Below, piece by piece: positions 15,561 through 63,960 of a stretch of 64,000 bases of DNA (position 1 is the stretch's first letter; each line of letters begins with the position of its first letter). The notes under the pieces are model-generated. The model did not search any database. It worked only from the letters and a program-made list of their open reading frames with translations, and was not told the origin of the DNA. The stretch is from Pseudomonas sp. SCB32 (lineage in GTDB: Bacteria; Pseudomonadota; Gammaproteobacteria; Pseudomonadales; Pseudomonadaceae), in NCBI RefSeq assembly GCF_009189165.1, contig NZ_CP045118.1:496001-560000 (forward strand), given 5' to 3'. The position numbers and the translations under genes are program-made.

Positions 15561-15628
15561 TCGCGGGCATGGCCCGCTCCTACAGGGAGCGGCGGGGCTG
15601 TTTCCGTAGGAGCGGACCTTGTCCGCGA
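15561..15628. repeat. REP elements between creC and creD
   Basis: Two elements of the TAGGAGCGG family: TCGCGGGCATGGCCCGCTCC (15561-15580, plus TAC) and GTAGGAGCGGACCTTGTCCG (15606-15625, plus CGA). They separate creBC from creD, which therefore probably has its own promoter. The rest of the 352-bp gap to 15894 holds the candidate CreB site. Confidence 0.8.

Positions 15629-40635: not shown

Positions 40636-40636
<1 letters not shown>
39833..40636 (+). CDS. bioC: malonyl-ACP O-methyltransferase BioC
   Basis: 267-aa SAM-dependent methyltransferase that starts pimelate synthesis by methylating malonyl-ACP. SAM-binding motif [15 protein letters not shown], followed by AVDIAEGML and the acidic [17 protein letters not shown]. 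The N-terminus [22 protein letters not shown] is characteristic of BioC. Translation is coupled to bioH by an eight-base overlap. The length is normal. Confidence 0.95.
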
Positions 40637-41407
<771 letters not shown>

Positions 41408-47491: not shown

Positions 47492-49270
47492 ATGGCTGAC
47501 TACAAAGCTCCCCTGCGTGACATGCAATTCGTCCTCAATGAGGTCTTCGAGGTTGCCAAGCTCTGGGCAGAACTGCCGGCGCTGGCCGAGACCGTCGATG
47601 CCGAGACCGCCAGTGCGATCCTTGAAGAGGCCGGCAAGGTCACCGGCGGCGTGATCGCCCCGCTGAACCGCAGCGGCGACGAGGAAGGCTGCAGCTGGAG
47701 CGCCGAGGGCGTGAAGACCCCGGCCGGCTTCCCCGAGGCCTACCGCACCTACGCCGAAGGCGGCTGGGTGGGCGTGGGCGGCGCGCCGGAATTCGGCGGC
47801 ATGGGCATGCCCAAGGTGATCGGCGCCCAGGTCGAGGAAATGGTCAACGCGGCCAACCTGTCCTTCGGCCTCTATCCGATGCTCACCGCCGGCGCCTGTC
47901 TGTCGCTGCTCAACCACGCCAGCGAAGAACTCAAGGCCAAGTTCCTGCCGAACATGTACGCCGGCACCTGGGCCGGTTCCATGTGCCTGACCGAGCCGCA
48001 CGCCGGCACCGACCTGGGCATCATCCGCACCAAGGCAGAGCCCCAGGCCGACGGCAGCTACAAGATTTCCGGCACCAAGATCTTCATCACCGGCGGCGAG
48101 CACGACCTGACCGAGAACATCATCCACCTGGTCCTGGCCAAGCTCCCCGACGCGCCGGCCGGCTCCAAGGGCATCTCGCTGTTCCTGGTGCCGAAGGTGA
48201 TGGTCAACGCAGACGGCTCCCTGGCCGAGCGCAATGCCGTGTCCTGTGGCTCCATCGAGCACAAGATGGGCATCAAGGGCTCCGCCACCTGCGTGATGAA
48301 CTTCGACGGCGCCACCGGTTGGATCGTCGACGCGCCGAACAAGGGCCTGGCCGCCATGTTCACCATGATGAACTACGAGCGCCTGGGCGTTGGCATCCAG
48401 GGCCTGGCCACCGGCGAGCGCTCATACCAGAGCGCCGTGGAATACGCCCGCGAGCGTATCCAGAGCCGCGCGCCGACCGGCCCGGTGGCGAAAGACAAGG
48501 CCGCCGACCCGATCATCGTGCACCCGGACGTGCGTCGCATGCTGCTGACCATGAAGGCGCTCAACGAGGGCGGCCGTGCCTTCTCCAGCTACGTCGCCAT
48601 GCAGCTGGACACCGCCAAGTACAGCGAAGAACCCACCACCCGCAAGCGCGCCGAGGAACTGGTCGCCCTGCTGACCCCGGTGGCCAAGGCCTTCCTCACC
48701 GACATGGGCCTGGAAACCACCATTCACGGCCAGCAGGTCTTCGGCGGCCACGGCTTCATCCGCGAGTGGGGCCAGGAGCAGCTGGTGCGCGATTGCCGCA
48801 TCACCCAGATCTACGAAGGCACCAATGGCATCCAGGCGCTGGACCTGATGGGCCGCAAGATCGTCGGCAGCGGCGGCGCCTACGCCAAGCTGTTCACCGA
48901 CGAGATCCGCACCTTCACCGCTTCGGCGTCCGCCGAGCTGGCCGAATTCACCGGCCCGCTGAACGCCGCCGTGCAGAACCTGGAAGAACTGACCGCCTGG
49001 GTCCTGGACCGCGCCAAGGGCAATCCGAACGAGATCGGCGCCGCGTCGGTCGAGTACCTGCAGGCCTTCGGCTACACCGCCTATGCCTACATGTGGGCGC
49101 TGATGGCGCGCGCCTCGCTGGGCAAGGAAGGCCAGGACGCGTTCTACGCCAGCAAGCTGGGCACCGCGCGCTTCTATTTCGCCCGCCTGCTGCCGCGCAT
49201 CCACTCCCTGAGCGCCTCGGTGAAGGCCGGCAGCGAGTCGCTGTACCTGCTGGACGCCGCGCAGTTCTAA
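47492..49270 (+). CDS. long-form acyl-CoA dehydrogenase (third paralogue, PA0508/FadE2 type)
   Basis: 592-aa paralogue, [23 protein letters not shown] and substrate contacts GSMCLTEPHAGTDLGIIRTK (Ala replaces the Cys of the other two), catalytic Glu in QIYEGTNGIQALDLMG, and the usual C-terminal extension. A separate upstream palindrome suggests separate regulation. A strong terminator follows. In PAO1 the gene at this place is reported for shorter acyl chains, as I recall; this is not visible in the sequence. Confidence 0.93.
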   Translation: MADYKAPLRDMQFVLNEVFEVAKLWAELPALAETVDAETASAILEEAGKVTGGVIAPLNRSGDEEGCSWSAEGVKTPAGFPEAYRTYAEGGWVGVGGAPEFGGMGMPKVIGAQVEEMVNAANLSFGLYPMLTAGACLSLLNHASEELKAKFLPNMYAGTWAGSMCLTEPHAGTDLGIIRTKAEPQADGSYKISGTKIFITGGEHDLTENIIHLVLAKLPDAPAGSKGISLFLVPKVMVNADGSLAERNAVSCGSIEHKMGIKGSATCVMNFDGATGWIVDAPNKGLAAMFTMMNYERLGVGIQGLATGERSYQSAVEYARERIQSRAPTGPVAKDKAADPIIVHPDVRRMLLTMKALNEGGRAFSSYVAMQLDTAKYSEEPTTRKRAEELVALLTPVAKAFLTDMGLETTIHGQQVFGGHGFIREWGQEQLVRDCRITQIYEGTNGIQALDLMGRKIVGSGGAYAKLFTDEIRTFTASASAELAEFTGPLNAAVQNLEELTAWVLDRAKGNPNEIGAASVEYLQAFGYTAYAYMWALMARASLGKEGQDAFYASKLGTARFYFARLLPRIHSLSASVKAGSESLYLLDAAQF

Positions 49271-49280
49271 GCGCTACGCA

Positions 49281-49309
49281 AAAGCCCCGCCTCGGCGGGG
49301 CTTTTTTTT
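49281..49309 (+). terminator. terminator of the third acyl-CoA dehydrogenase gene
   Basis: AAAGCCCCGCC-TC-GGCGGGGCTTTTTTTT, 10 bases after the stop codon. Confidence 0.94.
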
Positions 49310-49349
49310 GCCGGTTATAGAGTTTGGTAACCGAGATATCACGATTGCG

Positions 49350-49367
49350 TGTAAGCCTAGGCTTACA
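49350..49367 (+). promoter_or_regulatory. GacA upstream activating sequence of rsmY
   Basis: TGTAAGCCTAGGCTTACA, a perfect palindrome that fits the known GacA box TGTAAG-N6-CTTACA. It lies 60-77 bases before the likely rsmY start, the usual distance. Confidence 0.92.
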
Positions 49368-49426
49368 AACGCTGGTGGTGATCAGCGTCTGTCTGAAATC
49401 TCCTGGCGCGGTTAATCTTCTCCTCA

Positions 49427-49555
49427 GTCAGGACATTGCGCAGGAAGCGCCAACGACAACACGGAAATATAGGGATTCCACCAAGGATGGTGGCCAGCAC
49501 GGACGTCAGGATATCGGTCTGCAAAACCCCGCTTCGAAAGAGGCGGGGTTTTTTC
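49427..49555 (+). ncRNA. rsmY: small regulatory RNA RsmY
   Basis: About 129-nt RNA that titrates RsmA/RsmE/RsmN (CsrA family). The 5' part GTCAGGACATTGCGCAGGAA continues GCGCC and matches the known start of RsmY. The hairpin GCGC-AGGAA-GCGC shows an A-GGA loop. GGA triplets stand at 49431, 49443, 49463, 49473, 49485, 49501 and 49509. A terminator CCCCGCTTC-GAAA-GAGGCGGGG with six T closes it (49527-49555). A -10-like TAATCT lies at 49413-49418. The LysR and MOSC genes downstream match PA0528-PA0529, the PAO1 neighbours of rsmY. Confidence 0.9.
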
Positions 49556-49588
49556 TTGCCTGGGATTCGGCTATGGCGCGAACTTGTC

Positions 49589-49644
49589 GGTGCGGGCCAT
49601 GGCCGTGATCGCGCGCATGGGCTAGGCGCCCTGCAGCTCCTACA
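49589..49644. repeat. degenerate REP element after rsmY
   Basis: GGTGCGGGCCATGGCCGTGA at the left and CTGCAGCTCCTACAGG at the right around GATCGCGCGCATGG; a worn copy of the TAGGAGCGG family. Confidence 0.65.
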
Positions 49645-49689
49645 GGCGGAATACCGTGCTTGTCGGTAGCTGCTTTTGTAGGAGCAACT

Positions 49690-49875
49690 GTCTTTTGGGC
49701 TCCCGCGTTCGCGGGAGTGACGGGGGTGAGATTCGCGCTCCATTGCGTCATCCCCGCGAACGCGGGGACCCAGAAAACAATGTAGGAGCGGATCTTATCC
49801 GCGAATCCGGCCGGTAGGCCGGCGGTCAGAGGTTGCGCCGCTGTCGCGGTGATCGCGGAGAAGCTCCGCTCCTAC
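49690..49875. repeat. bipartite palindrome plus REP pair before the LysR gene
   Basis: 49690-49778 is an 89-bp bipartite palindrome with ends GTCTTTTGGG and CCCAGAAAAC and two inner hairpins. 49781-49875 holds an inverted pair GTAGGAGCGGATCTTATCCG and CGGAGAAGCTCCGCTCCTAC. No gene is visible from 49556 to 49896. Confidence 0.78.
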
Positions 49876-49896: not shown

Positions 49897-50775
49897 TCAC
49901 ACAGCGCCGTCGAGCAACGACCGCAGCAACTCCACCGTCGGCTGCTGGCGCTGCGCATCGCGATAGACCAGCCCCACGCTCAACGGAATGCGCGGTTCGC
50001 TCAGCGGCTTCCACAACAGGTTCGGATTACCGTGCATCTGTCGTGCGCGCCCCGGTAGCACAGTGGCGAAGCGGCTCTGCGGCAGGCTGTCGAGGATGCC
50101 GCTCATGTGGTTCAGCTCGGCCTGCACCCGTGGCCGGCGGCCGATGGCGGCCAGTTGCTCCTGCCAGATCTGCCGGGCGCGGAACTCCTCGCCCAGCAAC
50201 AGCATTGGCAGTTCCGCCGCCTGGGCCAGCGAGACTTTCTTGAAGTCTTTCAGCGGATGGTCCGCCGCGATCACCAGTTGCAGCTCGTCCGGGTACAGCT
50301 CCACGCCGTGCAGCGCCGGCTGGCGCGGCGGCAGGAAGCCAATGCCGATGTCGAGCTGGCCGACCAGCAGGCGCCGCTCGATCTCCACGCCCGACAGCTC
50401 GTAGATGCGCACCTGCACGTGCGGTTGCGCGGTATGCAGGCGCTCCACCAGGTGTGGCACCAGGTTGGCATTGACCGTCTGCAACACGCCGATGCTCAGG
50501 CTGCGCGCATTCTGGCCACGGAAGCCGCGCAACGATTCGCGGGCTCGCTCCAGGCCGTCGAGCAGAGGCACCGCGTGGTTGTACAGCGTGTGCGAGGCCG
50601 CGGTCGGCAGCAGGCGCTTGCCGCTGCGCTGGAACAGCGCCACGTCGAGGTTCTGCTCCAACTGGCGGATCTGCTGCGAGAGCGCCGGCTGGGAAATCGC
50701 CAGGCGTTCGGCGGCGCGCCCGACGTGGCCTTCCTCGTAAAGCGCAACGAAATAGCGGAGCTGGCGGAAATCCAT
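49897..50775 (-). CDS. LysR-family transcriptional regulator
   Basis: 292-aa LysR regulator. The winged helix MDFRQLRYFVALYEEGHVGR, AAERLAISQPALSQQIRQLE is intact; the substrate-binding domain spans about 90-290 (SIGVLQTVNANLVPHLVERL). It resembles CynR/BenM-type members. It diverges from the MOSC gene with 100 bp between, so that gene is a likely target. The same pair stands beside rsmY in PAO1. Confidence 0.92.
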   Translation of the reverse strand: MDFRQLRYFVALYEEGHVGRAAERLAISQPALSQQIRQLEQNLDVALFQRSGKRLLPTAASHTLYNHAVPLLDGLERARESLRGFRGQNARSLSIGVLQTVNANLVPHLVERLHTAQPHVQVRIYELSGVEIERRLLVGQLDIGIGFLPPRQPALHGVELYPDELQLVIAADHPLKDFKKVSLAQAAELPMLLLGEEFRARQIWQEQLAAIGRRPRVQAELNHMSGILDSLPQSRFATVLPGRARQMHGNPNLLWKPLSEPRIPLSVGLVYRDAQRQQPTVELLRSLLDGAV

Positions 50776-53920: not shown

Positions 53921-54631
53921 TCAAAGCTCGACCTCACCCCCGGCCAGCGCACACAGTTCGGTGAAATCGACGATCTCCGTCTCCCGCCCATCCACCCGCA
54001 CCAATCCATGCTTTTGCAGACGGGTGAAGCTGCGCGAAACGGTTTCCACCGCCAGCCCCAGGTAATCGCCGATCTCGTTGCGCGACATGCTCAGGCGGAA
54101 GCGCGTGGCCGAGAAGCCGCGATCGCGGAAGTGCGCGGAGATATTGAGCAGGAAGGCGGCGATTCGCGAGTCCGAATTCAGCCGCGAAAGCAGCAGCTTC
54201 ATCTGCTGATCTTCGCGGATCTTGCGGCTCATCATCAGCATGATCTGGTGCGACAGGCCGGGGATCTGGTTCGATAGCTCTTCCAGCTGATTGAACGGAA
54301 TCTCGCTGCACAGCGTGCTTTCCAGCGCCTGCGCCGACACCGGGTAGCTGCCTTCGCCCATGCCGGAAAAGCCGAAGATCTCGGTGGCGAAATAGAACCC
54401 GGTGATCTTCTCCAGGCCCTGCTCGTTGGTGGTGAAGGTCTTGATCGAGCCGGAGCGGACCAGATAGACGTTGTGGAACGGGTCGCCCTGGCGGAACACG
54501 AAGTCACCCTTGTGCAGCAGGCGGCCCGGCTTGATGATCGCCTCCAGTTCCTCGATCTTGTCGTCGCTCAGAGTCGGCGGCGCCAGCCGGCAGTTCTTGC
54601 AGTACGGTTGCGGTTTGATCATCTGATTCAT
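53921..54631 (-). CDS. Crp/FNR-family regulator, Anr-like, with three of four cluster cysteines
   Basis: 236-aa regulator similar to Anr/FNR. The cysteine region reads YCKNCRLAPPTLSDDK: C-x2-C is present, but the third cysteine (C-x5 later in FNR and Anr) is Thr. The fourth is kept in STLCSEIPF. The cNMP-like fold and dimer helix MSRKIREDQQMKLLLSRL follow, and the recognition helix AVETVSRSFTRLQ has the E-x2-SR pattern for TTGAT-N4-ATCAA sites. GGGGA before ATG 54631 decides the start. Oxygen sensing by a normal [4Fe-4S] is doubtful. It is not Dnr. Confidence 0.87.
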   Translation of the reverse strand: MNQMIKPQPYCKNCRLAPPTLSDDKIEELEAIIKPGRLLHKGDFVFRQGDPFHNVYLVRSGSIKTFTTNEQGLEKITGFYFATEIFGFSGMGEGSYPVSAQALESTLCSEIPFNQLEELSNQIPGLSHQIMLMMSRKIREDQQMKLLLSRLNSDSRIAAFLLNISAHFRDRGFSATRFRLSMSRNEIGDYLGLAVETVSRSFTRLQKHGLVRVDGRETEIVDFTELCALAGGEVEL

Positions 54632-54916
54632 CCATTTCCCCATGGGCCGGCTATCGCGCGCAGCACAGCGTTCCTCGGGCGCATCGCCCCCCTGAAACCA
54701 TAGCAATAGACAGCCATCTGTCACTTGCCGGGCGCCAGGAGAAGCCTGCGCCGAATGGATTTTTCATTCCAGCTTGACCCTTTCTTCACTGCGCCGACGG
54801 CAGTCTTCGCCGCCGCGCACCATGGGGTCATGGGGGAGCCCACAAGAACTCCAGGTGCCGTGACGCACCCGACGGAAGGGAACGCGTCTATCCCGCTTAT
54901 TTCCGGAGTCCTGTTC

Positions 54917-63846: not shown

Positions 63847-63960
63847 GCCTTCTGGGTCCCCGCGTTCGCGGGGATGACGGCGCAGCGAGTGGTCAAGTCC
63901 TGTCACTCCCGCGCACGCGGGAGCCCAGAAGACAGCGTAGGAGCGGACCTTGTCCGCGAT
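63847..63960. repeat. bipartite palindrome and REP half element at the window end
   Basis: 63847-63933 is a bipartite palindrome (CCTTCTGGG ... CCCAGAAGAC, hairpins CCCCGCGTTCGCGGGG and CCCGCGCACGCGGG). 63937-63960 is the half element GTAGGAGCGGACCTTGTCCG (plus CGA). No complete gene is visible from 63692 to the end. Confidence 0.8.

Follow-up and report, generated by a model that had tools for sequence, protein, structure and literature searches.

The window analysed here is a stretch of 64,000 nucleotides (64 kb) from Pseudomonas sp. SCB32. It contains an rsmY small RNA gene at 49427..49555 (+), placed by an Rfam model match at 49429-49552 with the ends inferred from an alignment of relatives. 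The upstream neighbour (47492..49270, +) encodes a 592-aa acyl-CoA dehydrogenase family protein, which matched several curated models, all below cut-off. The convergent downstream neighbour (49897..50775, -) is a LysR-type regulator whose best-scoring curated model, CynR, was also below its cut-off. A terminator-like hairpin after the acyl-CoA dehydrogenase gene (49278..49308, +; a stem at 49289-49301 and then a T run, the wider limits being set by eye) separates that gene from rsmY.

Identification of the rsmY RNA and its GacA box

The covariance model of the RsmY family (RF00195) matched 49429-49552 (+) with 98.3 bits against a gathering score of 57 (E 2.2e-22), and the match is full-length, spanning model positions 1-121 of 121. 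This bears out the RsmY identity, which the original prediction had left to be decided by this very score. It is the sole Rfam match reaching a gathering score in the 64-kb window, and the only one of six RF00195 matches in the genome over the cut-off. At the locus RsmY is also the best family of its clan, the search keeping only the best family per clan. All seven GGA motifs predicted for the 129-nt RNA stretch were counted within 49427-49555 (at 49431, 49443, 49463, 49473, 49485, 49501, and 49509); among 99-nt stretches of the window, 0.17% on the + strand and 0.04% on the - strand contain that number. Protein-gene annotation would indeed miss the RNA, but this matters little, as Rfam detects RsmY. 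No match was found in the plasmid collection.

The five weaker RF00195 matches in the genome, considered as a second rsmY, were rejected as all lying far below the cut-off of 57. The match at 4551408 (32.1 bits) has a terminator hairpin and no GGA by eye and was taken for a gene end with its terminator. At 3797820 the match (30.9 bits) sits on the 3' end of a cspA match that falls slightly short of the cspA gathering score (75.6 versus 78). A Leu_leader match, also short of its gathering score (37.5 versus 50), overlaps the one at 5650872 (26.6 bits), and no other family coincides with that at 2047640 (25.5 bits). The fifth, at 3620217, is limited to model positions 95-121 and overlaps an rsmX match that is itself sub-threshold.

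Upstream of the RNA, at 49350..49367 (+), is the GacA box (upstream activating sequence), identified by a motif scan and by its conservation upstream of rsmY in relatives. Its sequence, TGTAAGCCTAGGCTTACA, is a perfect TGTAAG-N6-CTTACA palindrome beginning at the predicted position. It was the sole match when the window was scanned with up to one mismatch allowed, 0.02 matches being expected from shuffles. The exact pattern occurs at one place in the 6,311,241-base genome, on both strands since it is palindromic, where about 0.05 sites are expected from the base composition of the window. With up to one mismatch there are five places genome-wide versus three for a reversed-pattern control; one-mismatch sites as a class are thus near chance, though one of them is upstream of rsmZ. 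The box lies ∼68 bp ahead of the inferred rsmY start, a distance correctly judged in the original prediction, and this spacing is kept in relatives. Both the RsmY gene and its GacA box are confirmed. Between box and RNA, the alignment of relatives points to a likely -10 element, TAATCT, at 49413..49418 (+); TAAYCT was counted by eye at this position in 28 of 29 aligned loci, the window's copy included.

RNA structure

Folding of 49427-49555 gave a z-score of -2.92, and 2 of 200 shuffled sequences folded as well. The fold comprises a GCGC-AGGAA-GCGC hairpin, a second hairpin with GGA in its loop, a weak three-pair helix, and a terminator. The first hairpin (49438..49450, +), supported by the Rfam match and the fold, presents GGA in its loop and is the expected RsmA site; the second, CCACCA-AGGA-TGGTGG (49478..49493, +), likewise has GGA in its loop and is supported by the fold and the alignment. 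In the centroid fold, the loops of these two upstream hairpins account for two GGA motifs and that of the three-pair helix for another. The rho-independent terminator (49523..49552, +) was found by the Rfam match, the fold, a terminator scan, and the alignment. Hairpin and terminator are both present as predicted.

The structure derived from the window pairs in 97.2% of cells over 28 distinct aligned sequences versus 37.8-50.1% for slid versions, a comparison that favours it from the outset as it was folded from one of the aligned sequences. Its covariation score was reached by none of 500 shuffles, which related sequences can beat without any structure. The stem of the first hairpin is invariant in all 28 distinct rows and, since it never varies, gives no covariation evidence. 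In the second hairpin, two of the six pairs are changed on both sides in some relative, and the innermost pair is unpaired in 13 of the 28 rows. Over the whole structure, three pairs (six cells) are changed on both sides; because the structure slid by -3 yields three pairs and seven cells, this count alone does not favour the structure. The length of the terminator loop (49531-49545) varies by up to 7 bases among the 30 aligned relatives (L016 versus the longest), and the terminator stem is largely kept despite this variation.

Conservation of the locus

RsmY was over the cut-off in 31 of the 56 genomes searched, as counted from a search table whose stricter filters lose some weak matches. By rank, these are all 25 genomes of the genus, counting this one, 6 of the 10 further members of the family, and none of the 21 further members of the order. 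None of 14 control genomes had a match over the RsmY cut-off, and two of them gave matches below it. Identity of the RNA with those of relatives reaches 98% (L015) and is 95% for two more (L018 and L027). Among 30 fetched rsmY loci, own copy included, the GacA box is exact in 27 and has one mismatch in two (L004 and L016). The spacing from box to hairpin is 66-70 bases in the 29 loci with the exact hairpin, and the aligned RNAs carry seven GGA motifs in 28 cases, eight in one, and five in one.

Named genomes scanned jointly for box and hairpin gave at least 119 stretches. This set overlaps the 30 fetched loci and, having been selected by the pattern itself, gives no measure of the frequency of missing boxes. 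The 80 stretches listed from it are all from Pseudomonas or Stutzerimonas. Across the set of at least 119, the spacing is 65-70 and the number of GGA motifs is eight in 62, seven in 45, six in 9, ten in 2, and nine in 1.

The neighbouring genes recur as well, a supporting feature outside the Rfam definition of RsmY. An acyl-CoA dehydrogenase homologue is near upstream of rsmY in 26 of the 30 loci, and a LysR homologue follows closely downstream, on the other strand, in 27, own copy included in both counts. In the named-genome set (at least 119 loci), the corresponding figures are 94/119 and 83/119, these loci being at most 8 kb so that some may end before the neighbour. Immediately upstream of rsmY, loci L002, L003, and L004 encode a protein that is distantly related (28.8-29.7% identity) to the Fnr-family protein of the window (53921-54724); the legend of an rsmY-region figure names pqqH/cynR3/dnr regulators (PMC4353343).

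In four genomes (G005, G007, G009, and G024), RsmY-like matches just upstream of rsmY were considered as tandem copies and rejected. Three of them are confined to the terminator part of the model (positions 92 or 93 to 121), and the one in G009, at 29.4 bits, extends over the full model. They probably represent the terminator of the upstream gene, by analogy with the hairpin at 49278-49308 in the window.

Partner genes of the Gac/Rsm system

The genome also encodes rsmZ (PrrB/RsmZ, RF00166; G000:C1:4572531-4572649(-), 100.6 bits), with a one-mismatch GacA box, TGTAAGCATTCGCTTACG, 162 bases upstream. The rsmZ box published for P. fluorescens SS101 (PMC4353343) differs from it at one base. RsmZ belongs to the same clan as RsmY and has the same expected job, but is a separate gene elsewhere with another sequence and hairpin layout. 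The model of rsmX (RF02144), of the same clan (CL00106), gave no match over its cut-off of 56 among the 150 of 1607 first-look candidates scored genome-wide, the best being 33.8 and 32.8 bits and away from rsmY.

One protein is over the cut-off of NF007018, which we take to be the UvrY/GacA model (320.8 versus 280 bits), and constitutes the GacA homologue. NF008318, presumably the BarA model, is best matched by an open frame of 963 aa; its 831.3 bits are under the cut-off of 890, which counts against the rsmY/Gac reading, and the frame was taken for a candidate GacS. Four CsrA/RsmA-family proteins are all over their curated cut-offs (L045-L048; G000:C1:1870048, 586672(-), 6152361(-), and 3643434). 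The gene at 586672 is ∼41 kb from rsmY, outside the window. L047 and L048 (59 aa) appear by eye from the ORF lists to be near-duplicates with similar flanks.

Interpretation

The observed sequence and family membership (the full-length RF00195 match), the conservation of orthologs, of the box with its spacing, and of the structure, and the presence of the partner genes together make it almost certain that the window carries the Pseudomonas rsmY, an RNA expected to be GacA-activated and to titrate RsmA/CsrA-family proteins. The reading of the locus in the original prediction, as an RsmY control RNA of the Gac/Rsm switch, is supported. The steps from GacA binding and transcription to RsmA binding and the effect on the mRNA targets are modelled here on published work on Pseudomonas orthologs. 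For P. aeruginosa, PMC9159945 reports GacA peaks only upstream of rsmY and rsmZ, and PMC2904497 describes both RNAs as acting by titrating RsmA. GacS would phosphorylate GacA, and phosphorylated GacA would bind the palindrome at 49350-49367 and activate a promoter whose -10 element is probably near 49413-49418. An RNA of ∼125-130 nt would then be made from about 49427 and end at the terminator near 49552. Through its seven GGA motifs, of which two or more are in hairpin loops, the RNA would bind RsmA/CsrA-family proteins and remove them from target mRNAs, by which translational repression would be relieved.

A sigma-70 scan found no promoter-like site, which counts against the rsmY reading and would suit an rsmY relic that has lost its transcription or its control by GacA. 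The rsmY of G033, with its four-mismatch box and five GGA motifs, shows that such genes can decay or diverge within the family. The negative scan might be what is expected for an activator-dependent promoter. The window's box, however, is perfect, its GGA motifs and helices are intact, and its RNA reaches 98% identity with that of a relative (L015), so that a relic is very improbable.

It is scarcely credible that the stretch is instead part of a protein-coding gene, either the 94-aa ORF at 49324-49608 (+) or the 126-aa ORF at 49363-49743 (-), even though both cross the RNA and the latter ends inside the GacA box: only 14 of the 30 aligned RNAs, window included, have a length from the first hairpin to GTCTGCAA that preserves the frame of the window, and because the distance between these two conserved RNA blocks shifts the frame while hairpins and GGA motifs are kept, coding is disfavoured. 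A count of stop codons did not settle the matter, at least one stop-free frame from box to terminator being found in 94 of 149 loci on the + strand and 39 of 149 on the - strand (the 149 including the named-genome set of at least 119).

The locus is an ordinary rsmY, a further ortholog of a well-known gene with nothing new in type. It resembles other members of the RsmY family (RF00195) such as the SS101 rsmY in its full-length model match, upstream GacA box, GGA-loop hairpins, and terminator. For the SS101 RNA, PMC4353343 gives an upstream GacA box, a size predicted at 118, and eight GGA motifs, whereas the window RNA has seven; the core of the box is CCTAGG in the window and CATTCT in SS101. 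Relative to the Rfam consensus, the window RNA has six extra bases in the terminator loop. The literature search found no paper joining rsmY, rsmZ, and GacA with nitroreducens. The window's rsmY does not change knowledge of the Gac/Rsm system; that the genome has both usual Gac/Rsm RNAs, each with a recognisable GacA site, helps annotation and predictions of Gac-controlled traits.

The presence of four RsmA-family proteins versus two detected Gac-type RNAs (RsmY and RsmZ) is a mild point of interest. The two RNAs differ in sequence and hairpin layout, which leaves room for the speculative and rather unlikely idea that they divide the four proteins between them, RsmY preferentially titrating some paralogs and not all.

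Divergent Rsm loci and a repeat near rsmY

In G033, the rsmY at G033:C4:255532-255651 (L030/L179) has a degenerate box with four mismatches and five GGA motifs, and GCGCTGGAAGCGC replaces the usual exact hairpin. G033 also carries another RsmY-like RNA (L178, G033:C3:205617-205729) that scores 54.2 bits, just below the cut-off. Among nine further Rsm-like loci in other genera of the family, five (L178 and L179 in G033, L180 in G025, L181 in G027, and L185 in G029) have a kept right half-site, CTTACA (CCTACA in L180), and a changed left half. These sites lie 56-64 bases before the RNA with four mismatches each, taken at the best position within 300 bases, and are perhaps a variant GacA site. 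As for the other four loci, L184 has an exact box, L183 a box with one mismatch at 101 bases, L182 one with two mismatches, and L186 none.

The window also contains five copies, with up to three mismatches, of a palindrome, GTAGGAGCGGA(C/T/G)CTT(G/A/C)TCCGCGA, that occurred in none of 100 shuffles and that we presume to be a REP-type repeat. Three copies are at 15606-15628, 40636-40658, and 63937-63959, and the other two (49782-49804 and 49853-49875(-)), which face opposite ways, are located between rsmY and the LysR gene.
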